Of a stretch of 27,890 bases of DNA, positions 7,577 through 27,674 are shown piece after piece. Origin of the DNA: Candidatus Poribacteria bacterium (GTDB taxonomy: Bacteria > Abyssobacteria > SURF-5); contig JACRIR010000125.1 of assembly GCA_016215705.1 (NCBI GenBank), positions 1 through 27,890 of the forward strand. The letters are read 5' to 3'. Each line of letters opens with the position of its first letter. The first letter of the stretch is position 1. The notes under the pieces were generated by a model that had not been told where the DNA came from, searched no databases, and was given only the letters and a program-made list of their open reading frames with translations. The position numbers and the translations under genes were made by a program.

Positions 7577-8653
7577 TTGGCAGAAATCGACAGAATTCTT
7601 TCGGAGTCAATGAAGGCAGGCGCCTCCGACATCCATCTTTGCGCCGACCGCGCGCCTATGGTGCGGTTGTGGGGCGAAGTGCGTGCGATTCGCGGTCACA
7701 GCGTGGTTCCGGCGGAGGAGAACAGAAAGCGTCTTTTTGAGATACTGAACACCCGGCAGATCGAAGACCTCGAGCGAAACTTCGAGATCGATATTTCGTA
7801 CGTGGTCAAAGATCTCGGGCGCTTCAGGGTCAATATGCATTATGAGGATCGCGGCCTATCCGCCTCGTTCCGGGTAGTTCCTTCGAGAATACGGACGGTC
7901 GAAGAACTGAATCTGCCGGAGGCCGCGAAGAACCTCACCCGGCTTCATCAGGGACTCGTTCTCATAACCGGCCCGTCGGGATGCGGCAAGTCAACGACGT
8001 TGGCCGCCCTGATTGACCTCATCAACCGGGATTCGCGCCGCCACATCATCTGTATCGAGGACCCCGTCGAGTTCGTTCATAGAAGCAACCTGTCGCATAT
8101 CGACCAGCGCGAGGTAGGCGTGCACACGCGGAGTTTCTCGTCGGCGCTGAGAGCTGCTCTTCGTGAAGACCCTGACGTAATCCTGGTGGGCGAGATGCGC
8201 GACCTCGAGACTATCGCGATGGCGATAACCGCCTCCGAGACGGGGCATCTGGTTTTCAGTACTCTGCACACCCGCAGCGCCTCCAAGACAATCGAGCGCA
8301 TCATCAATGTATTTCCGCCGGACCAGATAGCCCAAATACGCACGATGCTGGCCGAATCTCTCGCGGGCGTCATTTCGCAGCAATTGATTCGAAACGCGGA
8401 GGGAACCGGGCGAGTGCTCGCGCTCGAGATACTTCTGCGGACGTCCGCGCTCGCAACGCTCATTCGAGAGGGGAATACGTATCGAATTCCGTCGGTCATG
8501 CAGACTGGGAAGAAACACGGGATGATGCTGATGGACGAGCATATCATTTCTCTTTATCAGCGGGGTCTGGTTGATCCGAAGCATGCGTTGGAGAAAGTCA
8601 TCGACCGCGAGCGGTTCCTGGGCATCCTCGGAGGTCGCGGTGACACCTCCTGA
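7577..8653 (+). CDS. PilT-type pilus retraction ATPase, first of two
   Basis: This is a hexameric cytoplasmic ATPase that would drive type IV pilus disassembly (twitching motility, DNA uptake). The 358 residues are family length. There is an N-terminal PAS-like domain (SDIHLCADRAPMVRLWGEV near 17-35). The Walker A is GPSGCGKS at 132-139, with serine and cysteine where PilT usually has threonine and serine. A Walker B region with DVILVGEMRDLETIAMA follows at 200-216, and a His box HLVFSTLHT at 224-232. The start codon is TTG at 7577; GGGAGG (7564-7569) stands seven bases before it, which decides the start. A second, diverged copy follows after about 210 bases. No pilin or assembly genes are in the window. 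PilU is an alternative name for either copy. Confidence 0.93.
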   Translation: MAEIDRILSESMKAGASDIHLCADRAPMVRLWGEVRAIRGHSVVPAEENRKRLFEILNTRQIEDLERNFEIDISYVVKDLGRFRVNMHYEDRGLSASFRVVPSRIRTVEELNLPEAAKNLTRLHQGLVLITGPSGCGKSTTLAALIDLINRDSRRHIICIEDPVEFVHRSNLSHIDQREVGVHTRSFSSALRAALREDPDVILVGEMRDLETIAMAITASETGHLVFSTLHTRSASKTIERIINVFPPDQIAQIRTMLAESLAGVISQQLIRNAEGTGRVLALEILLRTSALATLIREGNTYRIPSVMQTGKKHGMMLMDEHIISLYQRGLVDPKHALEKVIDRERFLGILGGRGDTS

Positions 8654-8739
8654 GAAGAGGGGAAAGGCGAAAGGAGCAAGACGAAAGGGACGGAAAGACA
8701 GGAGGAAAAGGTAGAAGAACGCAAGGTCGGTAAAGGAAA
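8652..8739. repeat. Purine-rich AAAGGCGAAAGG tract
   Basis: The spacer between the two PilT genes is almost entirely purines, with repeated AAAGG, GAAAGG and GGCGAA words. Related tracts occur at 9919-9950, 11655-11755 and 27820-27854. No open frame or clear hairpin is visible. Confidence 0.5.
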
Positions 8740-8862
8740 GGCTGCATGCGCTATGGTCATTGCAAGCGTAACGAAGCAATCTCTTTATTTCTTTGGCTTT
8801 CTTTTGCCTCTTTTAACGAGGAGCCAGAAACCATGAACCCTAACCCATGACCACGGTCTCTT

Positions 8863-9921
8863 ATGGCTGCCGAGATTGACAAATTCCTGACGTTCCTCGT
8901 CGCGAACGAGGGGTCGGACTTGATGCTCGCCTCAGGCTCGAAGCCGATGATGCGGGTCCATGGCGATCTGTTTGCGCTCGATTTCGGGAGGGATAGCTCG
9001 AGTTTGAAGACGGAGACCACCCGGAACCTCATATATGAAATATTGAGCGATGAGCAGGTTCGCCGATTCGAGCGCTCGGGCGACCTCGATTTCGCATATG
9101 AAGTGCCCGACTGCGCCCGGTTCCGGTGCAACGTGTACAAGCAGACGAAGGGTCTGGGCATCGTGCTCCGCACGATTCCCACTAAGATCAAGACCATCGA
9201 GGAGCTTGGTCTGCCGATAGGCGTCAAGCAATTGGCGCGTTCGACGCGCGGATTCATCCTCGTGACGGGCCCAACCGGCAGCGGCAAGACGACCACGCTC
9301 GCCGCGATCATCGACCTTATAAACCGTGAGCGGCACAGCCACATCGTGACTATCGAGGAACCGATCGAGTACGTCCACAGGAGCATACGGTCGCTGATAA
9401 CTCAGCGCGAGGTAGGGCTGCACACCCACAGCTTCAAGGCGGCGTTGCGCAGCGCCGTGAGGCAGGACCCTGACATAATACTTGTCGGCGAGATGCGAGA
9501 CCTCGACACCATCGCGATGGCGCTCACGACCGCTGAGATGGGCGCGCTTGTGTTTGGCACACTCCACACCACGAGCGCCGCCAAGACGATCAACCGGATA
9601 GTCGACGTGTTCCCTTTTGAGGAGCGCAATCGGATTCGGGCGTTGCTCGCCGAGGCGCTGACAGGCGTCGTCGCACAGCAACTGGTGCAACGGTCCGACA
9701 AGAAGGGGCGCGTGGCAGTCGCTGAAATACTCGTGGGCACATCGGCAATCTCCAACACGATCAGGGAAGGGAAGATCGAGCAAATGGTCTCACTAATGGA
9801 GACCGGCAAGAAATACGGGATGCAGATGCTTGATGAACACCTGATGCAGCTTGTTCAGCAGTGCGTCATTACGCCTGCCGCCGCGCGCAAACTCGCCGGC
9901 AATAAGGCGCTGTTTGCATGA
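8863..9921 (+). CDS. PilT-type pilus retraction ATPase, second of two
   Basis: This is a paralogue of the gene just upstream with the same overall architecture in 352 residues. The Walker A is the standard GPTGSGKT (136-143). The Walker B region is DIILVGEMRDLDTIAMAL (204-221). In the His box the usual first histidine is alanine (GALVFGTLHT, 227-236), while the TLHT histidine is kept. The first copy keeps both. The N-terminal PAS-like part (SDLMLASGSKPMMRVHGDL) is clear. The ATG at 8863 has no strong Shine-Dalgarno site. Neighbouring tandem PilT/PilU-type ATPases often share work, one main motor and one helper that works through it; which is which here cannot be told. Confidence 0.93.
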   Translation: MAAEIDKFLTFLVANEGSDLMLASGSKPMMRVHGDLFALDFGRDSSSLKTETTRNLIYEILSDEQVRRFERSGDLDFAYEVPDCARFRCNVYKQTKGLGIVLRTIPTKIKTIEELGLPIGVKQLARSTRGFILVTGPTGSGKTTTLAAIIDLINRERHSHIVTIEEPIEYVHRSIRSLITQREVGLHTHSFKAALRSAVRQDPDIILVGEMRDLDTIAMALTTAEMGALVFGTLHTTSAAKTINRIVDVFPFEERNRIRALLAEALTGVVAQQLVQRSDKKGRVAVAEILVGTSAISNTIREGKIEQMVSLMETGKKYGMQMLDEHLMQLVQQCVITPAAARKLAGNKALFA

Positions 9922-13329: not shown

Positions 13330-13683
13330 ATGAGTGTGTATACGCCCATCTTTGCAATGTTCCTTGTGGCTTTTGCCATAGGACTCGGATTTCTGGCGGT
13401 TGCAACCTTCCTCGGCCCGAAGCGGCTATCGAAAGAAAAACTTGACCCATTCGACTGCGGCAACCCGCCGTTGGGCACGCCTCGCGTGCCCGTATCGATC
13501 AAATACTACGTTGTGGCCATACTGTTCATCCTCTTCGACGTCGAAGTGGTTTATTTGTATGTATGGGCGATAATATTCAAAGATCTGGGTCTGTTCGGCT
13601 TCGTTGAGATGCTGGTTTTCATTCTCATCGTGGTCGGCGGACTTGCATATGTTTGGAGAAAAGGGGCGCTGGAATGGAAATAG
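13330..13683 (+). CDS. nuoA: NADH-quinone oxidoreductase subunit A
   Basis: This is a small membrane subunit of complex I at the junction of the arms, near the quinone site. The 117 residues contain three membrane segments (about 7-30, 60-82 and 88-108). The conserved loop KLDPFDCGNPPLGTPRVPVSIKYYVVAILFILFDVEVVYLYVWA carries the cysteine and acidic residues typical of NuoA/ND3. The ATG at 13330 is preceded by AGGAG at a rather long distance (14 bases). It is the first gene of the operon and its end overlaps nuoB. Confidence 0.97.
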   Translation: MSVYTPIFAMFLVAFAIGLGFLAVATFLGPKRLSKEKLDPFDCGNPPLGTPRVPVSIKYYVVAILFILFDVEVVYLYVWAIIFKDLGLFGFVEMLVFILIVVGGLAYVWRKGALEWK

Positions 13684-14156
13684 GATCACCGCCTAGCGGA
13701 AACATCATCACGACGCGATTAGACAAGATAGTCAACTGGGGTCGCAAGTGGTCTTTCTTTTGTTACCCGTTCGTCACGGCGTGTTGCGGGATGGAATACA
13801 TGTCGACGGCTGCATCGCACTACGACATTGCGCGTTTCGGCGCCGAGTTCCCCCGGTTCTCGCCGCGCCAGGCGGATTTGATGCTCGTAGTGGGGACCAT
13901 ATGCCACAAGCTGGCGCCCGTAGTCAAGCTGGTGCACGAGCAGATGTGCGAGCCCAAGTGGGTTATTGCAGTCGGCGCGTGCGCGTGTTCCGGCGGGTTC
14001 TACCGCAATTACTCGGTTGTGCAAGGGGTTGACAGGATAATCCCGGTTGACGTATACGTGACCGGTTGTCCGCCGCGGCCAGAGGCTTTTCTGGACGGCA
14101 TCATGAAGATGCAGGCGAAAGTGGACACCGAGAGCATGTTTCAGCGCAGAAATTGA
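13674..14156 (+). CDS. nuoB: NADH-quinone oxidoreductase subunit B
   Basis: This subunit carries iron-sulfur cluster N2, which passes electrons to quinone. The 160 residues have the N2 ligands in place: the CC pair at 37-38 (TACCGMEYM), C103 in VGACACSGGFY and C132 in VTGCPPRPEA. An extra cysteine stands at 105, where many homologues have asparagine or methionine. The ATG at 13674 lies inside the last codons of nuoA (10-base overlap), which indicates translational coupling; an upstream TTG at 13653 is less likely. A long palindrome follows the stop codon. Confidence 0.97.
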   Translation: MEIGSPPSGNIITTRLDKIVNWGRKWSFFCYPFVTACCGMEYMSTAASHYDIARFGAEFPRFSPRQADLMLVVGTICHKLAPVVKLVHEQMCEPKWVIAVGACACSGGFYRNYSVVQGVDRIIPVDVYVTGCPPRPEAFLDGIMKMQAKVDTESMFQRRN

Positions 14157-14172
14157 CAATATCAAGACGGCT

Positions 14173-14215
14173 CTTAATTCGGGGACACGATGGGGCATCA
14201 TGTCCCCGAATTAAG
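14173..14215. repeat. Long palindrome between nuoB and nuoC, GGGGAC...GTCCCC family
   Basis: The arms CTTAATTCGGGGACA (14173-14187) and TGTCCCCGAATTAAG (14201-14215) are perfectly complementary over 15 bp. Inside, GATG and CATC pair around a GGG loop after one C-A mismatch. An imperfect extra right half follows (GGGGCATGGTGTCC, 14215-14230). Related hairpins lie at 17651-17685 and 23498-23538. It resembles REP-type intergenic elements that can be moved by RAYT transposases; no such gene is in the window. Confidence 0.85.
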
Positions 14216-14260
14216 GGGCATGGTGTCCACAATTGAGAGGCTGTACCTCAAGAGGCTCAG

Positions 14261-14767
14261 ATGGCAGAGAAGAATCCGACAATAAAGAAGCTGCTGGCCA
14301 AGTTTGGCGGCCAGATAGAGGTTGTGGCTTCACCTTTTGACAAGATGGATACGGTGAGGGTCAAGCGCGAGAGCATACTGGACGTGTGCATGTTTCTTAG
14401 AACCGAGGATGATCTCGACTATGACCTGATGCGCGACCTTACGTGTGTGGACTATATACACGAGAAACCGCGTTTCGAGGTCGTTTACCATCTCTACTCG
14501 ATCTACAACGGGCATGAGATAAGGCTAAAGGTTCGATTAGAGGAGCGCGACCCGACGATCGATACGGTGACAAGCGTATGGGTCGGCGCCAATTGGTACG
14601 AGCGTGAGGTTTACGATTTCTATGGAATAAGATTCAATAATCATCCTGACTTGCGGCGGATATTGCTTTACCCGGAATTTGTCGGGCATCCGCTCAGGAA
14701 GGATTATCCGATAGACAGAGAACAACCCCTTTTCGAGGAGCGCAAGGAAACAAAGGGCGTGCGCTGA
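14261..14767 (+). CDS. nuoC: NADH-quinone oxidoreductase subunit C
   Basis: This is a peripheral-arm scaffold subunit packed against NuoD and NuoI. The 168 residues have the family signature: RFEVVYHLYSI near 67, then NWYEREVYDFYGIRFNNHPDLRRILL near 110-135 and GHPLRKDYPID. It is a separate gene, not fused to nuoD as in Escherichia coli. AGAGG lies about five bases before the ATG at 14261. The gene is bracketed by two different palindromes, upstream at 14173 and downstream at 14776. Confidence 0.96.
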   Translation: MAEKNPTIKKLLAKFGGQIEVVASPFDKMDTVRVKRESILDVCMFLRTEDDLDYDLMRDLTCVDYIHEKPRFEVVYHLYSIYNGHEIRLKVRLEERDPTIDTVTSVWVGANWYEREVYDFYGIRFNNHPDLRRILLYPEFVGHPLRKDYPIDREQPLFEERKETKGVR

Positions 14768-14775
14768 TTCTTTGA

Positions 14776-14805
14776 GGGCGCAGTCCCGCCCAGGCGGGAC
14801 GCCCC
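14776..14805. repeat. GC-rich hairpin between nuoC and nuoD
   Basis: GTCCCGCC (14783-14790) pairs perfectly with GGCGGGAC (14793-14800) across a two-base CA step, and GGGCG (14776-14780) can pair with the following GCCCC. There is no T-run, so it is more likely a dispersed palindrome or an mRNA-stability hairpin than a terminator. Confidence 0.65.
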
Positions 14806-14838
14806 TACAAAAGAGAAGGCCGCCCGGCAAGAGCGAAA

Positions 14839-16029
14839 ATGGCTGATCTTACGAAAGAGCTTCATACGGAGTGCATGACGCTGCAGATGGGGCCGTCGCA
14901 TCCGGCGATGCACGGCACCGTCAAAATGATTGTTGACATCGACGGCGAAGAAATCCACAGCGTGAAGCCGGAGGTCGGCTATCTTCACCGTGGCTTCGAG
15001 AAGATGTGCGAGAACAGCACCTACCATCAAGTGATTCCATTCACCGACCGCCTCAACTATGTGTCGCCTTTCATCAACAACGTCGGCTACGCGATGGCAG
15101 TCGAGAAACTGCTCGGGATTGAAGTTCCTGAGCGCTGCAAGTATCTGCGCGTTCTGGCGTGCGAGATATCGCGCATCTCCGACCATCTTACGTGTCTCGG
15201 CGCGAGCGGCATGGAACTGGCGGCTTTTTCCGTGTTGCTGTACAGCATCGAGGCGCGCGAGTGGATGTGGGAGTTGGTGGAAGCGTTGTCGGGTGCGCGC
15301 TTGACGACCACGTGGGCCCGCATCGGCGGTGTCGCTTACGACATGCCTGACGGTTTCGAGCGGAAGGCGCGGGAAGAACTCGAGAAGGTGAAGCGCCTGG
15401 TCGAGGACATGCGCGGGCTGCTCGAGAAGAACAGGATATTCTATGATCGCATGCGCGGCACGGGCGTGCTCGAGGCCAATGATTGCCTCGCATATGGAGT
15501 CACCGGACCGTGTTTGCGGGCAGCGGGCGTTTACTACGACGTTCGCAAGGCGAAACCCTACCTGGTTTATGACCGCCTTGATTTCGAGGTTCCGCTGGGA
15601 AAATCAGGCGACAATTACGACAAGTTTGTTGTTCGCGTTCTCGAAATTTACCAGAGCATAAGAATAATCGAGCAAGCACTCGAGCAGATTCCGGCTGGCC
15701 CGATAGCCGTGGATGATCCGAAGATCACGCTTCCGCCCAAGCAGGAGGTCTACACCTCAATCGGGGCGCTTGTTCATCATTTCAATATTATTGTTAAGGG
15801 GATTCGGCCACCCAAGGGGGAAGCTTACTTTGCGGTGGAGGGTGGAAACGGCGAACTCGGGTTCTATGTCGTTTCCGATGGTTCGGACAAGCCGTGGAAA
15901 TGCCGCTGTCGCGGGCCGTGTTTCCCGATAGTGCAGGCAGTGCCGAAAATGCTTGAAGGCGCGATGGTCGCCGACGTTGTTCCGACGTTCGGAATGGTCA
16001 ATATGATCGGCGGCGAAATGGATAGATGA
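14839..16029 (+). CDS. nuoD: NADH-quinone oxidoreductase subunit D (49-kDa type)
   Basis: This subunit forms the quinone-reduction cavity with NuoB. It is related to the large subunit of [NiFe] hydrogenases but lacks the metal-binding cysteine pairs. The 396 residues are the normal length. The quinone-site motif is MGPSHPAMHG near 17-26; VGYLHRGFEK, NYVSPFINNVGYA and EISRISDHL are typical. The C-terminus has three cysteines, C355, C357 and C361 (KCRCRGPCF), where homologues mostly have Arg/Lys-Pro-Ser/Gly. The ending MIGGEMDR corresponds to the usual GEVDR. A 13-base repeat of its last codons follows the stop. Confidence 0.97.
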   Translation: MADLTKELHTECMTLQMGPSHPAMHGTVKMIVDIDGEEIHSVKPEVGYLHRGFEKMCENSTYHQVIPFTDRLNYVSPFINNVGYAMAVEKLLGIEVPERCKYLRVLACEISRISDHLTCLGASGMELAAFSVLLYSIEAREWMWELVEALSGARLTTTWARIGGVAYDMPDGFERKAREELEKVKRLVEDMRGLLEKNRIFYDRMRGTGVLEANDCLAYGVTGPCLRAAGVYYDVRKAKPYLVYDRLDFEVPLGKSGDNYDKFVVRVLEIYQSIRIIEQALEQIPAGPIAVDDPKITLPPKQEVYTSIGALVHHFNIIVKGIRPPKGEAYFAVEGGNGELGFYVVSDGSDKPWKCRCRGPCFPIVQAVPKMLEGAMVADVVPTFGMVNMIGGEMDR

Positions 16030-16055
16030 CCAATCCAGACAGAATGGATAGATGA
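16017..16055 (+). repeat. 13-bp direct repeat at the nuoD-nuoH junction
   Basis: AATGGATAGATGA occurs at 16017-16029, where it encodes the end of NuoD and its stop, and again at 16043-16055, directly before the nuoH ATG at 16057. The 26-base offset suggests a small local duplication that built the spacer. nuoH has no other clear Shine-Dalgarno site. Confidence 0.8.
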
Positions 16056-16056
16056 T

Positions 16057-17121
16057 ATGGCAGAGGCCTTAATCCTGGCAGTCAAAATTGCAATTGCAAC
16101 CATGTTTGTGCTGAATCTCGCCGGGCTCTTGACGTGGGCGGAGCGGAGGCAGAGCGCGTTTATTCAGGATCGGCTCGGGCCGAACCGCGCGAGCGTGTTC
16201 GGGATCAGGCTTATCGGTCTTCTGCATCCCGTGGCTGACGGGATCAAGATGATCATGAAGGAAGACTTTATTCCCGCCGGCGCCGACCGCGTGGTGCACA
16301 CGATCGCCCCGTTCATTGCGCTGTTTCCCGCATTCGTCGCCTATGCCGTGATTCCGTTCGGCGACAGGCTTCCGATATTTGGTTATGATGTTAACCTCGT
16401 GGTCTCGGACATAAACATCGGCTTGCTGTTTGTGGTGGCCGTGATGTCGATTGCCATTTTCGGCATTTTTTTGGGCGGATGGGCATCGAATAACAAATGG
16501 TCGCTTCTCGGCGCGTTGCGCTCGGCGGCCCAGATGATTTCGTACGAGGTGACTCTCGGTCTCACGATAATCGGCATTTTGATGGTGTACGAGTCGGTCA
16601 GGCTCGATGAGATTGTTCGCGCCCAGGGGGACCTGCTTTTCGGCTTCATACCAAAGTGGGGAATCGTCACACAGCCGATAGGTTTCCTGCTCTTCTTTGC
16701 GGCGGCGATGGCTGAGAGCAAGCGGACGCCGTTTGATTTGCCGGAGGGCGAATCAGAAATTGTGGCGGGTTATTTCCTCGAGTACAGCGGAATGAAGTTC
16801 GGGATGTTCTTCATGGGTGAATTCGCCGAGATTGTGGTCATTGCGGGGATCATAGCATCCCTGTTCCTCGGCGGCTGGCAGATACCATGGGTTACGACGG
16901 AGATGCTTCTTAAGGCTTTCCCGGGGTGGCTCGTAGCGTTGATTCAGATAGGCGTGTTCTCGGCGAAAGTCGTGGCTTTGTGCTGGCTGCAATTGACTAT
17001 ACGCTGGACGCTGCCACGGTTCCGTTATGACCAACTCATGCGGCTGGGATGGAAGATGCTGTTGCCGATTTCGCTCGCGAATATCTTTGTGACGGGACTG
17101 GTTATTTTGTTGCTGCAGTAA
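16057..17121 (+). CDS. nuoH: NADH-quinone oxidoreductase subunit H
   Basis: This is the membrane subunit that makes the heel of complex I and closes the quinone channel. The 354 residues have about eight membrane segments. Signature stretches are LLTWAERRQSAFIQDRLGPNRAS near 22-45, LADGIKMI-like VADGIKMIMKEDFIP, SYEVTLGL near 165 and AESKRTPFDLPEGESEIVAGYFLEYSG near 217-243, whose acidic residues line the channel. The gene is followed by nuoI after a short spacer. Confidence 0.97.
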   Translation: MAEALILAVKIAIATMFVLNLAGLLTWAERRQSAFIQDRLGPNRASVFGIRLIGLLHPVADGIKMIMKEDFIPAGADRVVHTIAPFIALFPAFVAYAVIPFGDRLPIFGYDVNLVVSDINIGLLFVVAVMSIAIFGIFLGGWASNNKWSLLGALRSAAQMISYEVTLGLTIIGILMVYESVRLDEIVRAQGDLLFGFIPKWGIVTQPIGFLLFFAAAMAESKRTPFDLPEGESEIVAGYFLEYSGMKFGMFFMGEFAEIVVIAGIIASLFLGGWQIPWVTTEMLLKAFPGWLVALIQIGVFSAKVVALCWLQLTIRWTLPRFRYDQLMRLGWKMLLPISLANIFVTGLVILLLQ

Positions 17122-17140
17122 CAGCCGGGAGATTTTGCTG

Positions 17141-17614
17141 ATGTCGATGAAGACAAGTTTGACATTCTGGGAACGACTTTATTTCCCTGAAATCTTCAGG
17201 GGAATTGCCATAACTTCACGTCATTTCTTCAAGAACCTATCAAACCCGTTGAAGAATCCGGTAACCATACGGTATCCGGAACAGAAGCGATTCATTCATC
17301 CGCGCTGGCGCGGACGCCACAGGCTCATGGAGCGCAATGACGGCTCGCCGCGTTGTGTCGCATGCATGTGTTGCGCTACGGTTTGTCCGGCGCGGTGCAT
17401 ATCCATCATGCCGGGCGAGCATTCTGATCCTGCAATCATGAAGTATCCCGTTTCGTTTGAGATCGATTTGACCCGCTGCATTTTCTGCGGTTACTGCGTC
17501 GAGGCTTGTCCGGTCGATGCCATTCGCATGGACTCGGGCATCGTCTCGGTTGTCGGTTATGATCGCGACCAGCTTCAGTTCAATAAGGATCGATTGCTCG
17601 CAAAGACTCCCTGA
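17141..17614 (+). CDS. nuoI: NADH-quinone oxidoreductase subunit I
   Basis: This is the ferredoxin-like subunit with two 4Fe-4S clusters (N6a and N6b) that lead electrons to N2. The 157 residues carry CVACMCCATVCP with C72, C75, C78 and C82, and CIFCGYCVEACP with C113, C116, C119 and C123. An N-terminal amphipathic part (FWERLYFPEIFRGIAITSRHFF) would lie on the membrane. The ATG at 17141 is preferred over an upstream TTG because CGGGAG (17126-17131) stands nine bases before it. It is the last gene of the operon; no nuoJ-N follow, and a strong hairpin comes next. Confidence 0.96.
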   Translation: MSMKTSLTFWERLYFPEIFRGIAITSRHFFKNLSNPLKNPVTIRYPEQKRFIHPRWRGRHRLMERNDGSPRCVACMCCATVCPARCISIMPGEHSDPAIMKYPVSFEIDLTRCIFCGYCVEACPVDAIRMDSGIVSVVGYDRDQLQFNKDRLLAKTP

Positions 17615-20322: not shown

Positions 20323-21105
20323 TTATTGTCCTTTGAAATCTGCGGGGCGTTTTTGCATGAAGGCCATGACGCCTTCCATCGCGTCTCCGGTTGCCGAGAC
20401 GGCGGCCATGTTGTCGGCTTCGATCTCGAGGCCTTTTTCAATAGTGGTTTCGAGGCCGCGGTTCACGCAGTCGATGATCATCTTGATCGCAATTGGCGCT
20501 TGCCTTGCCAGCCGTTCGGCAAGCGCCCGCGCCTCGTCCGTCAGAGAAGGCGCTGAACAAACCTTATTGACAAGACCGATCTCGAGCGCGCGTTGAGCCG
20601 GAATCCTATCGCCCAGGAACAGCAGTTCATATGCGCGCGTTCGTCCAACGAGGCGCGGCAGGCGTTGTGTGCCGCCGTAGCCGGGGATGATTCCGAGGTT
20701 TATCTCCGGCTGGCCGACGGCGGCCGTATCGGCCATGAGACGCAGATGGCACGCCATTGCGAGCTCGCAGCCGCCGCCGAGCGCGTAGCCGTTTATGGCG
20801 GCGATAACGGGCTTCGGGAACCGCTCGATGCGTGTGAACAGTTTGTGGCGAGTCATCACGAGAGCTTTGACGCTGCCTTCACCGAATGCCTGGCCGAATT
20901 CAGTTATGTCGGCCCCGGCGCAGAAGGCTTTTTCGCCCGCGCCGGTGAGAATGATTGCACGTGTCTCGGTATCTTGTTCGAGTCCGTCGAGCACGGAGTT
21001 TAGTTCCTCTATCATCTGATTGCTGATGGGGTTCATTGGAGGCCGATTCAATGTGATTGTGACAACACGGTCGGCGTGGTGGACAACTACCGTTTCGTAT
21101 GGCAT
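20323..21105 (-). CDS. Enoyl-CoA hydratase/isomerase family protein
   Basis: This is a crotonase-fold enzyme. Most likely it adds water to 2-enoyl-CoA in fatty-acid or related acyl-CoA breakdown. The 260 residues are standard. The oxyanion-hole region is KAFCAGADI (59-67) and NGYALGGGCELAMACH (105-120). The two catalytic glutamates of hydratases are present at E114 and E134 (GQPEINLGIIPGYGGTQRLPR). This favours a true hydratase over the other crotonase reactions. CGGAG lies six bases before the ATG at 21105. The gene sits 15 bases after the large secreted protein and two bases before the kinase. No other beta-oxidation genes are in the window. Confidence 0.93.
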   Translation of the reverse strand: MPYETVVVHHADRVVTITLNRPPMNPISNQMIEELNSVLDGLEQDTETRAIILTGAGEKAFCAGADITEFGQAFGEGSVKALVMTRHKLFTRIERFPKPVIAAINGYALGGGCELAMACHLRLMADTAAVGQPEINLGIIPGYGGTQRLPRLVGRTRAYELLFLGDRIPAQRALEIGLVNKVCSAPSLTDEARALAERLARQAPIAIKMIIDCVNRGLETTIEKGLEIEADNMAAVSATGDAMEGVMAFMQKRPADFKGQ

Positions 21106-21120
21106 GGCGGACTCCGTCTA

Positions 21121-23124
21121 TTACTTGATCCTCTTCATGAAATATTGGTGGTACAGGTAGATGGGTTTCTTCTTGTCTTGTCTGTACTGGTTGACGTAGC
21201 TTTTCCTTTCCTGCTTGAAAGGTTTCAGCTCTCCTTCCTTTAAGGGGAGATCATGGTTGCAGGCGTAATCGAAGAAGCATTCGGAGTAGAATTCGTTTGA
21301 GCTGTAGCCCTTGTGCGATTCCTCTTTTGAGCCGCTTTCAAGCTTCAGTTTGTTCTGAACGGACACGATTGTTGTGATCTTAGGCCACGCAAGGCGGACA
21401 GTGTTCCCGTCGACTTCACCGTTTATGCTTGTTCCAGCCAGCCCGTTGACTCTGTCACAGTTTCTGCAAACAGTGCTCTTGACAAAAAAGACTGAGGGAT
21501 CAAATACCTGGATGGGAGTCACGGTTGCCGACGTTATCTTTCCCTCCTTGTACTTCCATTTCCCTTTCACTTTCTTGATCGTGAATTCCGCCGTTAGCTT
21601 GGTGTAGTTGAAGCGCACGCCGAAGTCGATTTCCCGATACTTCCACTTGTCCTTGACTTTCATGTACATCAACTGGCCGCCGACGTCGTCGGTTTCCTGG
21701 CCGGTAAGCGAGACGCGCCACGTCTGTTCCTCGACCGTGCTTAGTGTCGCCTGCCTTGTCGTGTTCCCCGTCCCATTCGTGACGTTGGTGAAAGTCACAG
21801 TGTCTTTGTAATCACCGGCCTTGAGTGTTTTTGCCGCTTGCTCGTTAATAGAGACTATGACATTGGAGGTCTGCCTGGGCTCCAGTGTTCCCTCGGTGGC
21901 GGACAGTCCCAGCCAGTTCTGGGTCTTCGAGACACTATATTTGATGGCGGACTCACCCGTGTTCTTGAGGACATATGTTTTGGAGGAAGGATTGAATTTG
22001 TTTTTGTCGTCGGGGCCCGTAGAGGCCAAGCTGTCGCCGGGAGTGACCTCGAGTTTGCCCGGCCCCGCCAGAAAGCCAAGGGTCCCTGTAACCATGATTT
22101 TGACCGGCTTTGTCTGGCCTCCCATATCGATTTCGGTCGGGAACGAATGTCTCACGTTTCCGGGTCCTAGCGAAACGCTCTTCTGTCCCTTGGGGAGTGT
22201 GCCCTCGATATCGATTGAGAAGAGTTCTCCCGAGTCATATCCGCTCCCGCTGCTTTCGGAATCGCTTTTGTAGGCGCTTTTTACCGTGCATTTTCCCATT
22301 GTGCTGACGCTGAAGCTGTATTTAGTTGACCCATCGGGTTGTTCTTCCATGTACAGGATGCATTTGACGTCCAGCATTTTTGCGCTCTTGGGCGGAAGTT
22401 TCACACCAGGCATATTGACCGCAGGCGTGGTGCGCGTTTGATACGTCGCGCCCTGATATACCTCGCTCCCGTCACAACGGGTGGTCGCTTCTTCAATGCT
22501 GGATCGTTGCGCACTGCCTTGTTTTTGCGGATGCGCAATGTAGTCTCCAAGGACTTTCTCCGAGCTGCTCCATTTGCTCTCGTCCACGCTCTTCTTCTCA
22601 ATGTAATAGGTGAAACTGCCGATCGGCGCAAGCACGGTCGGTGAGCCGGGCGTATCGGGAAAAGCCGGCGCTTCCTCAAACGAAATCGAAACGATAGCCT
22701 TCCCATCAACGCTAGATTTGCCGCTGTCCGTCGACTCGTATGAACTTACGGAGGTGATATTCTTTTGCGAAGAACTGCCGCCGGCCGAGCCGGTGACCGA
22801 TATGGTGAGATCGAGTTTGGCCTTTATGTTCTTGCCCTTAACAGAGGGGGCCTGCGGCTGTTTCATGGGAACGGGCGGAGGCGTGTTTTGCAGAGGCTTC
22901 GGCGATTGAGGCGAGACCTTTGCCGGAGGGACCGGCGCAGCAGGAGGCAACGGTTGCTGCTTTTGAGGGGGCTGAGACGGCTGTTTCTGTTGAGGCTGCT
23001 CTTTGTTTATTGATTTCAGGATGTCGCCGTAAGGACTATCCCCCCACGCGGGGACAGGCAGGGCAACCATTGCCAAAGCAACCCAAATACACAGCAGAAA
23101 CAGAGAGAGTTTTTTCCCGTTCAT
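21121..23124 (-). CDS. Large secreted protein with Pro/Gln-rich linker and BACON-like domain
   Basis: I do not recognise the full-length family. The ATG at 23124 is chosen over one 20 codons earlier because GGAG stands nine bases before it and a clear signal peptide begins at once (MNGKKLSLFLLCIWVALAMVALPVPAWG). The mature protein has about 640 residues. A Pro/Gln-rich linker (about 41-95) comes first, then a Ser/Gly-rich beta region (about 100-350). Next is a BACON-like Ig-fold domain (about 356-462) with NWLGLSATEGTL and the TFTNVTNGTGNTTRQATL pattern. The C-terminal part has CRNC and two more cysteines and ends in a very basic KDKK/KRIK tail. BACON domains usually bind carbohydrate or mucin, so surface display or matrix binding is possible. 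It lies downstream of a small lipoprotein and a CsgG-like gene. Confidence 0.8.
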   Translation of the reverse strand: MNGKKLSLFLLCIWVALAMVALPVPAWGDSPYGDILKSINKEQPQQKQPSQPPQKQQPLPPAAPVPPAKVSPQSPKPLQNTPPPVPMKQPQAPSVKGKNIKAKLDLTISVTGSAGGSSSQKNITSVSSYESTDSGKSSVDGKAIVSISFEEAPAFPDTPGSPTVLAPIGSFTYYIEKKSVDESKWSSSEKVLGDYIAHPQKQGSAQRSSIEEATTRCDGSEVYQGATYQTRTTPAVNMPGVKLPPKSAKMLDVKCILYMEEQPDGSTKYSFSVSTMGKCTVKSAYKSDSESSGSGYDSGELFSIDIEGTLPKGQKSVSLGPGNVRHSFPTEIDMGGQTKPVKIMVTGTLGFLAGPGKLEVTPGDSLASTGPDDKNKFNPSSKTYVLKNTGESAIKYSVSKTQNWLGLSATEGTLEPRQTSNVIVSINEQAAKTLKAGDYKDTVTFTNVTNGTGNTTRQATLSTVEEQTWRVSLTGQETDDVGGQLMYMKVKDKWKYREIDFGVRFNYTKLTAEFTIKKVKGKWKYKEGKITSATVTPIQVFDPSVFFVKSTVCRNCDRVNGLAGTSINGEVDGNTVRLAWPKITTIVSVQNKLKLESGSKEESHKGYSSNEFYSECFFDYACNHDLPLKEGELKPFKQERKSYVNQYRQDKKKPIYLYHQYFMKRIK

Positions 23125-23201
23125 GGGGAGAATCTCCGTGGGGGAATGTGTCCGGCAATCCCTGGTAGAACGCTTTCTACCCATCGCGTCAGCAGCCGAA
23201 T

Positions 23202-23399
23202 TTACCTGTTATAAGGATTTGATTCCGGCTTGCCGGCGATGCCTTCAGCGACGCCCTCGGCAGCGGAATGCGGCACGCGCATGACTGATCCCACGGTCTC
23301 ACCGCCCGATTTGGCGTCCTTGTTCACTTGCTCCATTGAAGTGGAGCAGCCTTGCGCGAACAAAAAGCAGAGAATCAAGAGCAAAACGGCAATTTTCAT
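23202..23399 (-). CDS. Small lipoprotein
   Basis: This 65-residue exported protein starts with MKIAVLLLILCFLFAQGC, a short signal ending in a cysteine that would be lipid-modified, although AQGC is not an ideal lipobox. The mature part of about 48 residues is small and polar (STSMEQVNKDAKSGGETVGS...), slightly like entericidin-type lipoproteins. The ATG at 23399 is chosen because GGGAGG stands seven bases before it; an upstream ATG adds only MGGLH. The gene lies between the CsgG-like gene and the large secreted protein, all on the minus strand. The function is unknown. Confidence 0.78.
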   Translation of the reverse strand: MKIAVLLLILCFLFAQGCSTSMEQVNKDAKSGGETVGSVMRVPHSAAEGVAEGIAGKPESNPYNR

Positions 23400-23497
23400 A
23401 TGCAAGCCTCCCATACGCCCTATATGAGTCTTGTTCGAATCATAAGTTTTCGTTGCGATTCTCTTGCGACATGTGCATTTGCGCAGAAATCATGCGC

Positions 23498-23538
23498 GAA
23501 AATGGGGTACGCGATGTCGCATCGTGTCCCCAATTTTC
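23498..23538. repeat. Palindrome of the GGGGAC...GTCCCC family
   Basis: GGGG (23504-23507) and CCCC (23528-23531), flanked by AAAAT and ATTTT, enclose ACGCGATG and CATCGTGT, which pair around a TCG loop. One A and one T are bulged. It sits in the 244-base spacer between the CsgG-like gene and the lipoprotein gene. The core ACGCGAT/ATCGTGT is shared with 17651-17685. Confidence 0.75.
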
Positions 23539-23643
23539 TACGTCAGGCTTTCGAGAAACCCATCAGCGCCGAAACAAGATTCGACAGGGTATTTCCCTGA
23601 AAGGCTTCCGGAACGCGACGGCGGCATCCTGCTGCATCACTTG

Positions 23644-24579
23644 TTATTTCTGTTTTTCCTCATAGCGGATAGTATCGCCCGCTTTTATTCCTTTTCCGCC
23701 GGCGGTCAGCTTGGCCTTGGAGTATTTCTCCTTGACCTCGACCACTTTCAGCGAGCCAATCTTCTTCTCCTCGAAGCCGAGGAGTTCTCCGGTGTCGGGG
23801 TCAACCAGTTCCTCGCCCACCGAATAGATGGCGAATGTGTCGCCGGCGCAGGCGCCCACTTGTTCACCCGCGCTGATAACGACATCATCGCCGGTGCATT
23901 TGACGATCCTGCCCTGGAACGGACGGTTCTTCAACTCGGCGGAGATAAACTCTACGGCATTGTCGATCGCGACCTGGGTTGCCTTGCCGAGCGGCGTCTT
24001 CTTGAAGCTATCGGTCTTCAGATCGACTCCACCGACGTTCACTCCGAGATTCATACCGCCCGATTGAGCTTTGCCCTCGACGCGCTTCGAGGCGAGGACC
24101 TGGCCCGTTGTCGTGTCGATGAGTCGAATGATGACTCCCACGTGGGCGTCCTCCCGGTTGGAGCCGATATTGAAGCCGCCGAATCCGATGCCGCCACCGC
24201 TCCCGCTGCTCTTAGACTCGAATTCGGTGACGGTTCCTTTGACCAAGACCTGCGCGCTTGTCAACTTGCCGGTCCGGGCCGACTTCGACTGTTGGAACCT
24301 GCCGCTCTGCGCGAGGTCCTGTTCGGAGATAACATCCGTGAGCGTTTCCCTTTCGAGAACCGTGAACTGGCCGCTCTGGATGAGCGCGTCAGTGAGTTGG
24401 TCGGCCATGCCGGTGTCCAGGTCCCATTGACCGCCGCCGCTGTAAGATGTCTTGTTCTCGAATCTGGAGACCGCGACGACTTTCTTCAAGCCTTCAGCGC
24501 TGACAGGAGTCAGCAGGCCGCCAACGATGATGAGGCTGATGACGATAAGAACAATTGCGTGAAAATGCCGGTGCTTCAT
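23644..24579 (-). CDS. CsgG-family periplasmic/outer-membrane protein
   Basis: This exported protein of 311 residues is related to CsgG, which forms the outer-membrane channel for curli subunits. The ATG at 24579 is chosen because GGAGG stands eight bases before it and a signal peptide follows (MKHRHFHAIVLIVISLIIVGGLLTPVSA). CsgG-like parts are KKVVAVSRFENKTSYSGGG, MADQLTDALIQSGQFTVLERETLTDVISEQDL and AQVLVKGTVTEFE...VIIRLIDTTTGQVLASKRVEG. The signal ends in an ordinary AEG site, without the acylated cysteine of Escherichia coli CsgG. A C-terminal extension of about 90 residues (RIVKCTGDDVVISAGEQVG...) looks like a small beta-domain. No csgA, B, E or F genes are nearby. It starts 32 bases after the FG-GAP gene. 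Confidence 0.88.
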   Translation of the reverse strand: MKHRHFHAIVLIVISLIIVGGLLTPVSAEGLKKVVAVSRFENKTSYSGGGQWDLDTGMADQLTDALIQSGQFTVLERETLTDVISEQDLAQSGRFQQSKSARTGKLTSAQVLVKGTVTEFESKSSGSGGGIGFGGFNIGSNREDAHVGVIIRLIDTTTGQVLASKRVEGKAQSGGMNLGVNVGGVDLKTDSFKKTPLGKATQVAIDNAVEFISAELKNRPFQGRIVKCTGDDVVISAGEQVGACAGDTFAIYSVGEELVDPDTGELLGFEEKKIGSLKVVEVKEKYSKAKLTAGGKGIKAGDTIRYEEKQK

Positions 24580-24611
24580 GTTTTCTTCCTCCGCTTCCAA
24601 TGTGCCAAATC

Positions 24612-25895
24612 CTATTTCTTCAACCTTTGGGATATGTTTAAGAGCACCCTCCCTTCCGACATCCCCAAGGAGCCCCTCAGGATGACTATTATATCCGACA
24701 AACCGTCATTATTCACATCGCAGACACGGAGGCAGCTCACCGGCTTGCCTCCGAAATGGCGCTCGATGATCTTGTCGAAGTGTGCTTCGCCGGAATTCAG
24801 TTGAACTTTGAGTCCGTCATAACCGCCTCCGGCGACAACGAGGTCGGACAGACCGTCTCCGTTGAAGTCGCCGCATTGGATGAGGGCATAGCCGGAGAGC
24901 CCCAGCGAGAGGAATGTTGAGAATCGCTCTCCCCCGACGTTCAGGAGCACCCAACCTATTCCCGCCCTGTCGACAACGAAAAGGTCGTCGAAATCATCTC
25001 CGTTCATGCGCCCGTGAAGTATTATCGCGCTGCCGTCGAATGACGGACCTGTGAAGTTAGAGACAATGAGTTCGGGCTTCACTGAACCGCCGGAGATGTG
25101 AAGAACATCCTTCTCTCCACGAATCATGATAATCTGCTGTTCTCCGACCTTGAGGATATCCGTTGCGCCATCGTTGTCGGCGTCGAGTGCAAGCGCCTGA
25201 AACGAGCTCTTGCTTTCATCTGCGCCTGAACTCATGCGAGCAATGCTGTCCGTTGAAGGCATTTGCGAGCCCGTACTTGCGCTCATAACGAAAAGGTCGG
25301 TGTCGCCGTTGGTTCCAAATACGAAATCGGTTTTCTTGTCGCCGTTCATATCCTCTCCAAACACAAACGGCTGAGAGGAAGCGCTGAAACCTGCCGGCAG
25401 GGCGACGGCAAATCGTTCGTTGAGAGATTCGTCTTTCAAACTCGAGGTGACCAGGAACAACGAAGCTTCGGATGATTCCGAGCTGATGCGGCGTTCCTGG
25501 AATGTAACTATCTCGTCCTTGCCGTCGCCGTCAACATCTGTCGCGATGAGGGTTGCGCCGACGACAGCGTTCTTGTATCCTCCTCCAAAACCTTGCTTCT
25601 TGGGCGGCAAAAATTTCCCTTTTCCATCTCCACAGCTTACCCAGATGACGGATGGGTCGGAAGTAACAAAAATAAGGTCCGGGGAGTGGTCGCCGTTGAA
25701 ATCTCCGACTTCGATCCTTCGCGCCGCTGGAACCTTGAGGAGGGTTTTCTCGAGGAATGATACGAATGGAGCGGGCTTCGTCGAAGGCGTCGCGTTCTCC
25801 TCAGCATGCGCTTGCGCGGCTGAAAGGGGCATAAGCATGGCGAGGATAATGAGGAGAGGCTTCTTGCAGCCTGCAGGCTTCAAGCCGGAGAGCAT
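24612..25895 (-). CDS. Exported FG-GAP/VCBS repeat protein, probable seven-bladed propeller
   Basis: This exported protein has 427 residues. The ATG at 25895 is preferred because GGGAGG stands seven bases before it and a signal peptide ends near AAQAHA. Seven repeats each carry an acidic calcium-binding loop: GDFNGDHSPD, TDVDGDGKDE, EDMNGDKKTD, LDADNDGATD, GRMNGDDFDD, GDFNGDGLSD and CDVNNDGLSD. The spacing of 50-60 residues fits a seven-bladed beta-propeller. Such proteins act in adhesion or binding outside the cytoplasm. It is the first gene of the CsgG-lipoprotein-secreted protein series. There is no catalytic motif and no membrane anchor beyond the signal. Confidence 0.87.
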   Translation of the reverse strand: MLSGLKPAGCKKPLLIILAMLMPLSAAQAHAEENATPSTKPAPFVSFLEKTLLKVPAARRIEVGDFNGDHSPDLIFVTSDPSVIWVSCGDGKGKFLPPKKQGFGGGYKNAVVGATLIATDVDGDGKDEIVTFQERRISSESSEASLFLVTSSLKDESLNERFAVALPAGFSASSQPFVFGEDMNGDKKTDFVFGTNGDTDLFVMSASTGSQMPSTDSIARMSSGADESKSSFQALALDADNDGATDILKVGEQQIIMIRGEKDVLHISGGSVKPELIVSNFTGPSFDGSAIILHGRMNGDDFDDLFVVDRAGIGWVLLNVGGERFSTFLSLGLSGYALIQCGDFNGDGLSDLVVAGGGYDGLKVQLNSGEAHFDKIIERHFGGKPVSCLRVCDVNNDGLSDIIVILRGSLGMSEGRVLLNISQRLKK

Positions 25896-25965
25896 GATGG
25901 GACCTCCCGATACCAGGGATGACAATACTGCCCCGCAAACAGCAACTCGGGGAACACCGGCGCAG

Positions 25966-25983
25966 GCGCGAATTCATTCGCGC
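25966..25983. repeat. Short perfect palindrome upstream of the FG-GAP gene
   Basis: GCGCGAA (25966-25972) and TTCGCGC (25977-25983) form a 7-bp stem around TTCA. There is no T-run, so a terminator is unlikely. Confidence 0.55.
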
Positions 25984-26076
25984 AATAATTCCGGCTCATT
26001 TTGGCCGTGCGAATGCGAACAAATCGGCGACTACAAACCTCTGTGCATAATTCTAAACCGCGCTATGGCTTCTAAT

Positions 26077-26109
26077 GGGGGACAGACCCGAACTGCGGGG
26101 CAGCCCCCC
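26077..26109. repeat. G/C-run hairpin downstream of leuA
   Basis: GGGGG (26077-26081) can pair with CCCCC (26104-26108), with an inner CTGC/GCAG stem-loop at 26093-26103. It lies about 50 bases past the leuA stop and might end the leuA message, although no T-run follows on the minus strand. The rest of 25896-26156 holds no gene I can support. Confidence 0.4.
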
Positions 26110-26156
26110 TTGTCAAGATTATACCCTGTTTTTCACATGCGCACAACAGAAAAATC

Positions 26157-27674
26157 TCATTTTCTGCTGCTAAGTGAAAGCCACTTGTTGAGGGCGTTCA
26201 GATACGCTTTTGCGCTGGCCTCGATGACGTCGGTGCTCAGGCCGCGCCCGGCGACGACGTCGTCCTTGAACTGCAGCTTGACGAACGCCTCGCCCATCGC
26301 GTCTTCACCGATGGTGACGGCATTGATGGAGTATTCGAGCAGTTTGCCGCTGATTCCCGTGATGCGCTCGATTGTCTTATAGGTTGCATCCACCGGCCCG
26401 TCGCCTACGGCTGAATCGACGTCCGATTTGTTGTCGTGGCGGAGCTGGACGGTGGCAGTCGCCATAGTCTTGTTTCCGCTTGTGGTTTGCATGTACTCGA
26501 GCTTGTAGAATTCCTTGATAAGATTGAGCGCTTCCTCGACGATGGCCACGAGGTCCTCGTCGGTCACCTCTTTCTTCTTGTCGGCGAGGGCGATGAACTT
26601 CTTGTAGATGGTTTTCAGATCTTCTTCGCTGAGCTTGAACCCAAGCGTCTCGCACCGCGCAAGGAGCCCGTGCTTGCCGGAATGTTTCCCGAGCACAATC
26701 GAGCTATGGGGGACACCGACCGACTCGGGCGTCATGATCTCGTACGTGAGGGCTTGCTTTATGACGCCGTCCTGATGCACGCCCGACTCGTGGGCGAATG
26801 CGTTCTTGCCGACGATAGGTTTGTTGCGCGGGATGACGAGGCCGGTGATCGTGCTGAGCAGCTTCGAGGTGCGATATATTTCCTGGCTGTTGATTCTCGT
26901 GTGAAACGGCAACTGGTCCTCGCGGGTGCGGATAGCCATCACGATTTCCTCAAGGGCGGCATTGCCCGCGCGCTCGCCGATGCCGTTCACCGTGCATTCC
27001 ACTTGCCGCGCGCCGAAACGAACCGCTGCGAGGCTGTTCGCGACTGCCATGCCGAGGTCGTTGTGGCAGTGAGCGCTCAAGATAACGCGGTCGATGTTCG
27101 GCGTTTTCTCCCGGATTCTTCTGAAGAGCGCTCCGATCTCGGCCGGAGTCGCATAGCCGACCGTGTCGGGAATGTTTACGACTGAAGCTCCTGCTTCAAT
27201 AACCGCGCGGACGACTTCGCAAAGGTAATCGGTATCGCTCCGGGTGGCGTCTTCGGCGGAGAACTCGACGTCAGCGGTATACCGGCGGGCGTACTTGACG
27301 GCCCCGATTGCGTCTTCGAGCGCCTGCTCTCGCGTTCTGCGGAGTTTGTGTTTCAGATGGATATCGGATGTCGCAATGAAGATGTGGATGCGCGGATGCG
27401 CCGAGATTTTGATGGCCTCCCACGCCGAATCGATGTCCGGCTTGTTGGCGCGCGCGAGTCCCGCGACGGTGACGTCCTTGACCGAGCTTGCGATCTTGCG
27501 GACCGAATCGAATTCGCCGGGCGACGCGATCGGGAATCCCGCTTCGATGACATCGACGCCGAGCTTCTCGAGTTGGATGGCCATCCTGATTTTCTCATCG
27601 ACCGTCATGCTTGCGCCGGGTGATTGTTCGCCGTCTCTCAGGGTGGTGTCAAACATATACACTTGTTCTGTCAT
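26157..27674 (-). CDS. leuA: 2-isopropylmalate synthase
   Basis: This cytoplasmic enzyme condenses acetyl-CoA with 2-oxoisovalerate, the first committed step of leucine synthesis. The 505 residues are normal for the bacterial type. The catalytic TIM barrel opens with [16 protein letters not shown] (residues 8-23) and has the metal-binding [13 protein letters not shown] with H202 and H204, and [14 protein letters not shown] near 231-244. [17 protein letters not shown] follows. The C-terminal part (about 390-500) is the leucine-binding regulatory domain, with [15 protein letters not shown] and [16 protein letters not shown], so feedback inhibition by leucine is expected. AGAGG lies about seven bases before the ATG at 27674. 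No leader peptide or T-box is visible upstream, and no other leu genes are adjacent here. Confidence 0.97.

Follow-up and report, generated by a model that had tools for sequence, protein, structure and literature searches.

An unlipidated CsgG/FlgT-like protein and an undescribed small lipoprotein form the core of a lineage-specific gene block and probably build a ring together at the outer membrane

The window, that is, the whole stretch of DNA analyzed here (27,890 nucleotides), is an entire contig of a draft genome that measures 5.47 Mb and has a completeness of 92%. Its phylum was represented by three genomes in the comparison. Four genes for exported proteins lie in series on the minus strand, with leuA upstream on the same strand and ech downstream:

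24612 to 25895, minus strand: gene of an FG-GAP beta-propeller protein (427 aa), accessory member
23644 to 24579, minus strand: gene of a CsgG/FlgT-like protein (P0001, 311 aa), core member
23202 to 23399, minus strand: gene of a small lipoprotein (P0002, 65 aa), core member and partner of the CsgG-like protein
21121 to 23124, minus strand: gene of a BACON-domain protein (667 aa), large, exported and lineage-specific
23498 to 23539, strand not applicable: palindromic interspersed repeat of the GAAAATNGGGGACACGATG...CATCGTGTCCCCNATTTTC type in the csgG–lipoprotein intergenic gap
21116 to 26172, strand not applicable: extent of the lineage-specific block, where nucleotide homology to the related genome G002 breaks off and restarts
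26157 to 27674, minus strand: leuA (2-isopropylmalate synthase), left neighbor of the empty site in relatives
20323 to 21105, minus strand: ech (enoyl-CoA hydratase), right neighbor of the empty site in relatives

The gaps from the propeller gene through csgG, the lipoprotein gene and the BACON gene to ech are 32, 244, 77, and 15 bp. A preliminary description of this DNA had listed a seven-repeat propeller, a relative of CsgG that has a plain signal peptide and one additional C-terminal domain, a lipoprotein of 65 residues, and a large protein with a Pro/Gln linker and a BACON-like domain. All four reading frames are present with the boundaries given above, and each of these traits was recovered as detailed below; signal peptides and lipoboxes were called by simple rules. 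A Pfam scan of the 29 open reading frames between 20.3 and 27.7 kb matched only the four exported proteins, leuA and ech. Thus CsgA, CsgB, CsgE, and CsgF were not found in this segment, in agreement with the preliminary description, and the same reading frames contained no flagellar or FlgT_N gene. Scanning the locus for promoters and terminators yielded nothing above the chance level, and the Rfam and tRNA scans gave no matches.

The search for the same gene order in related genomes had been named beforehand as a check on the four genes forming one envelope system, and its outcome was divided. In the other two genomes of the phylum (G001 and G002, same family, other genera), the block is missing and leuA directly adjoins ech, with spacings of 66 and 163 bp; the flanking genes are 81–83% (leuA) and 71–82% (ech) identical to those of the window. 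Nucleotide homology with G002 ends at 21115 and picks up again at 26173. The four genes therefore constitute a lineage-specific insertion of about 5 kb, or a segment lost in both relatives. Neither genome contains a full-length CsgG homologue of the window kind, a lipoprotein homologue or a homologue of the BACON protein. A recent foreign origin was rejected on the grounds of base composition, as the GC and GC3 of the block resemble the rest of the host genome. Conservation was found in more distant genomes, and it is centered on P0001 and P0002.

P0001 matches Pfam CsgG at 2.1e-42. Its signal peptide is plain and devoid of a lipobox (...LLTPVSA|EGLKK), so the protein has no lipidated N-terminal cysteine. 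The CsgG (FlgT-M-like) domain spans residues 31–221 and is followed by a FlgT_C-like beta-barrel at about 222–309. This extra domain scored 0.0028 for Pfam FlgT_C, below the cut-off, and its assignment comes from the structural match; FlgT_M was also below the cut-off for P0001, while FlgT_C exceeded it for the homologue at locus L208. The AlphaFold2 model, based on 50 aligned sequences, has a mean pLDDT of 83.7. Over the whole protein, it matched FlgT (3w1e) with a Z value of 17.3 and the 8z5n chain shown for the flagellar LPHT ring with 20.2; the match to CsgG covered residues 31–221 at a Z of about 13. The sequence profile of the family gave the opposite ranking, with 7e-17 for CsgG versus 0.5 for FlgT, and its match to CsgG runs on through the first transmembrane hairpin. 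Both hairpin positions of CsgG are filled in P0001 by Gly-rich alternating segments, which have low pLDDT in the monomer model. The model shows that P0001 has the FlgT M+C / CsgG fold, and the predicted fold places its subfamily as a bridge between the CsgG channel and the FlgT ring. A plasmid search with P0001 returned only distant (<30%) CsgG/HfaB relatives.

P0002 carries the lipobox FAQGC and the C-terminal signature EGxAEGxxGxxxxNPYxR. It had no match of note in Pfam, NCBIfam or PHROGs, and it represents an undescribed family. Across seven sequences, G33, G37, P43, S45, E48, G49, A51, G53, P62, and R65 are invariant (P0002 numbering). By the usual +2 rule, a residue other than Asp after the lipobox cysteine fits outer-membrane sorting. 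The family has Ser, Ala or Glu at this position and never Asp, so it is suited to such sorting.

To place the pair, one genome per species (GTDB 220) was scanned with a five-sequence alignment, which yielded 80 loci with named organisms. The scan relied on a peptide pattern from within FlgT_C, so its sample consists of CsgG proteins that carry this domain. A P0002 homologue was found directly downstream of csgG at five of the closest loci, namely in L113 (Desulfobacterales), L114 (Deltaproteobacteria), L115 (Thermodesulfobacteriota), and L116 and L118 (Omnitrophota). At L117, another close locus, the contig stops right after csgG. When the lipoprotein profile was run by itself against 386 genomes, one further strong match emerged, in G229 (E 1e-15), and the 44 genomes of its phylum yielded another, in G387 (E 7e-15). 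Both of these lipoproteins, found without looking for CsgG, are encoded directly downstream of a CsgG/FlgT_C gene. Hence all eight known family members, from several phyla, adjoin such a gene in the same position; the intervening gap is between -4 and 98 bp in the seven other genomes, versus 244 bp in the window. Among the 89 CsgG proteins placed in a tree, the lipoprotein-linked ones fall into one clade (100/95), where P0001 is the sister of the L113 protein, and none of 500 shuffles was as clustered. The CsgG-like protein and the small lipoprotein are a genuine pair, conserved across phyla.

The pairing runs in one direction. Every genome with the lipoprotein has an unlipidated CsgG beside it, with a lipidated copy in between in G229, where both CsgG genes precede the lipoprotein gene. 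Conversely, most of the approximately 75 CsgG relatives examined are non-lipidated and have no P0002-type lipoprotein, and the linked clade itself holds three Kiritimatiellota-like rows without one. An unlipidated CsgG therefore does not in general depend on this lipoprotein, and we rejected the idea that such proteins always need it. Many of the relatives without it have a different lipoprotein gene close by. Genes within two positions of these CsgGs code for lipoproteins in 13% of cases, versus 1.6% for distant genes. This excess is dominated by one TPR/SLH family, and its p-value is indicative only because the loci are related, not independent.

The wide gap between csgG and the lipoprotein gene in the window holds a near-perfect palindrome of 41–42 bp. 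At least 39 further copies occur in the genome, a lower bound because only 40 candidate regions were scored. The palindrome resembles an interspersed REP-like element, apparently acquired when the pair was already in place. It may function as a terminator or mark the end of an mRNA, and could separate the transcription of csgG from that of the lipoprotein gene.

The propeller has a plain signal peptide, seven Dx[DN]xDG-type (calcium-loop-like) motifs, and a Pfam FG-GAP_3 match of 2e-26. A homologue (42% identity over 249 aa, 5e-54) is located directly upstream of csgG in L113, the one contig where the upstream propeller is conserved. L113 is assigned to another phylum, retains the propeller–CsgG–lipoprotein order, and encodes core proteins 61–68% identical to those of the window. 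It is a 3-kb contig with a GC content of 47%, versus 55% in the window's phylum, which makes a mis-binned close relative the less likely, though conceivable, source. The BACON protein has a signal peptide, the Pro/Gln linker at residues of about 42–95, and BACON_2 at 381–452 (1.4e-6; 28.6 bits against a cut-off of 25). Its single-sequence structure model was unusable (pLDDT 35.7). No homologue beyond the BACON domain was found in 60 genomes, and no counterpart was present in L113 or beside CsgG in other relatives. The fourth gene of L113 codes for a large exported PAN-domain protein with no similarity to it, which indicates that the BACON protein is a local addition; a role as a conserved substrate was rejected. 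Consequently, of the proposal that the four genes form one envelope system, the CsgG–lipoprotein pair stands across phyla, with the propeller joining it in L113, and the four-gene set is not conserved.

Comparison with known systems sets this pair apart. As in the curli channel CsgG (PF03783; PDB 4uv3, 6si7), the CsgG domain is present with both hairpin positions occupied, but P0001 has no lipidated cysteine, carries the extra FlgT_C-like domain, and is paired with a small lipoprotein in a window with no curlin subunits, CsgE or CsgF nearby. Curli (type VIII) secretion calls for a CsgG-family pore domain in a lipoprotein; P0001 has the domain, and it and its closest relatives have plain signal peptides. 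The M and C domain architecture is shared with FlgT of the Vibrio flagellar H-ring (PDB 3w1e; LPHT ring 8z5n), whereas P0001 has no N-terminal domain, is much nearer to CsgG in sequence, and resides between leuA and ech rather than among flagellar genes. A FlgT_N-like domain, below the Pfam cut-off, is encoded by a separate gene in L208, L211, and L148, and a gene of this type also precedes the CsgG/FlgT_C gene in G229 and G387. In KSB1, Calditrichota, and Zixibacteria, the operon reads LPP20 – TPR/SLH lipoprotein – FlgT_N-like – CsgG/FlgT_C, not all four being present at every locus. These operons contain the same, mostly unlipidated, CsgG–FlgT_C subfamily; unlike them, the window has no LPP20, TPR or FlgT_N gene and has the small lipoprotein, the propeller, and the BACON protein instead. 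Many of the proteins that Pfam assigns to CsgG are distinct from curli CsgG and make up a larger family, according to the parts of Dueholm et al. (2012, PMC3521004) drawn on here; neither the lipoprotein pairing nor the gene order of the window is among the features given in those parts.

With these results in hand, we consider the best explanation to be a two-gene core, in which a non-lipidated CsgG/FlgT-like ring-former is tethered by a small outer-membrane lipoprotein, with the propeller as an accessory and the BACON protein as a passenger (probability of roughly 0.5). P0001 would oligomerize on the inner side of the outer membrane to form a ring that might insert beta-hairpins into it, in the manner of CsgG. 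P0002 may bind each P0001 subunit via its conserved C-terminal segment and supply the lipid tether, which in E. coli CsgG is attached to the protein's own N-terminal cysteine. For the latter protein, N-terminal lipidation was reported to be essential for outer-membrane attachment (PMC3173608). CsgG depends on its lipid, P0001 lacks the cysteine for one, and a lipoprotein gene lies beside the gene of this unlipidated protein; the most economical interpretation is that P0002 would tether or mature the ring of P0001 at this membrane. The propeller would dock on the ring in some lineages, and the BACON protein could be a local protein that binds at the cell surface or in the periplasm. An insertion in the lineage of the window would have brought the block to its site between leuA and ech. 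A wider formulation, which we put forward tentatively, is a two-component outer-membrane ring/channel family spread over several phyla, where the CsgG-type lipid anchor has been split off into a lipoprotein of about 65 residues with an invariant EGxAxG...P..R tail, and a beta-propeller is a partner in some lineages.

The P0001 ring may alternatively be a purely periplasmic FlgT-like scaffold (an H-ring or a non-flagellar equivalent) that is bound to peptidoglycan or an outer-membrane lipoprotein and never inserts into the membrane. We regard this as possible but doubtful. FlgT provides the best whole-length structural match (Z 17–20), and the same CsgG subfamily occurs with FlgT_N-like and LPP20 genes in the three phyla named above, LPP20 being also the family of FlgP. 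The H-ring consists of FlgO, FlgP, and FlgT (PMC6375700). Nevertheless, the far closer sequence profile to CsgG, the conserved hairpin segments, and the scanned neighbors, which include no FlgT_N or flagellar gene, disagree with a scaffold that stays out of the membrane.

The preliminary description had suggested that the CsgG-like protein may assemble or export one of its neighbors. This would make P0001 a CsgG-type outer-membrane secretion channel for the BACON protein or the propeller, similar to curli with a different substrate, which we find unlikely. The complete CsgG domain and the Gly-rich segments at both hairpin positions fit a channel, as do the exported neighbors and the gene order retained in L113; what links P0001 to the export of either protein is adjacency, and this part of the proposal is unsupported. 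The curli partners are absent from the scanned reading frames, the full-length fold match is to a ring protein that is not a channel, and there is no conserved substrate, because the fourth gene is wholly different in L113 and missing beside CsgG in other relatives. Moreover, the CsgG eyelet is reported to be about 12 Å wide and to pass unfolded chains (PMC7304575), leaving a folded BACON or propeller cargo with no known route through it. Least probable is a chance gathering of four unrelated exported genes at an insertion-prone intergenic site, with no functional link except that between csgG and the lipoprotein gene: the empty site in both relatives, the genome-wide repeat inside the pair, and the unassociated BACON protein would suit it, but the shared order and similarity of the three genes in a contig assigned to another phylum and the host-like, uniform base composition speak against it.

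The surprise at this locus is the CsgG–lipoprotein pair, not the four-gene set. An unlipidated CsgG/FlgT-like protein and an undescribed small lipoprotein are the core of the block and probably build a ring together at the outer membrane, while the propeller and the BACON protein are partly or wholly local additions. A natural two-part variant of CsgG would be of practical interest because CsgG is widely used as a nanopore scaffold. Proteins with a CsgG domain are common outside curli systems, and most of them lack an explanation. For one clade of them, the linked family of small lipoproteins offers a concrete candidate binding partner and a starting point for understanding what may keep an unlipidated relative of CsgG and FlgT at the outer membrane.

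Repeated DNA was found in the two large gaps of the four-gene block, which holds the propeller, csgG, small lipoprotein and BACON protein genes.
23498-23539: near-perfect palindrome of 41-42 bp between csgG and the lipoprotein gene (GAAAATNGGGGACACGATG.../...CATCGTGTCCCCNATTTTC)
25896-26157: leuA-propeller intergenic stretch, with weaker repeats that recur at about eight more sites of the genome
The palindrome has at least 39 further copies across the window's genome and, among the copies read, was often adjoined by other inverted repeats; we describe it as REP-like. Since the leuA-propeller stretch is repetitive too, both large gaps of the block contain repeated DNA.

Two further gene groups were noted elsewhere in the window.
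7577-9921 (+): tandem pair of genes for PilT-like ATPases
13653-17614 (+): short complex-I-like cluster of B, C, D, H and I-type subunits only
The cluster ends at an opposite-strand histidine kinase gene, and the remaining complex-I subunits are absent from the window.

CsgG-like proteins at other loci showed different arrangements.
L212:4988-6202 and L213:3641-4864 (G001 and G002, two genomes of the same phylum): proteins of about 405 aa, domain order reversed relative to P0001, the CsgG/FlgT-like protein of the block
L215:5138-10868 (contig C145 of the window's genome, G000): two LpoB/CsgG-like lipoprotein genes and neighbours
L119:1390-1608 (a clade neighbour): immediately following csgG, a protein of 72 aa that has a transmembrane segment at its N-terminus
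In L212 and L213, the FlgT_C-like domain, matching P0001 residues 205-303, precedes a CsgG/FlgO-like domain. The L215 genes adjoin an exported protein of 827 aa that carries NHL repeats, as well as a cytochrome-like protein rich in CxxCH, making this a second site with propeller repeats beside CsgG-like proteins.

The L119 protein occupies the small lipoprotein's place and is possibly an analogous anchor. At L151, L164, L172 and L208, an unlipidated CsgG/FlgT_C protein is followed directly downstream by a second copy carrying a lipidation-like cysteine. These tandem pairs suggest that some lineages may build mixed rings.
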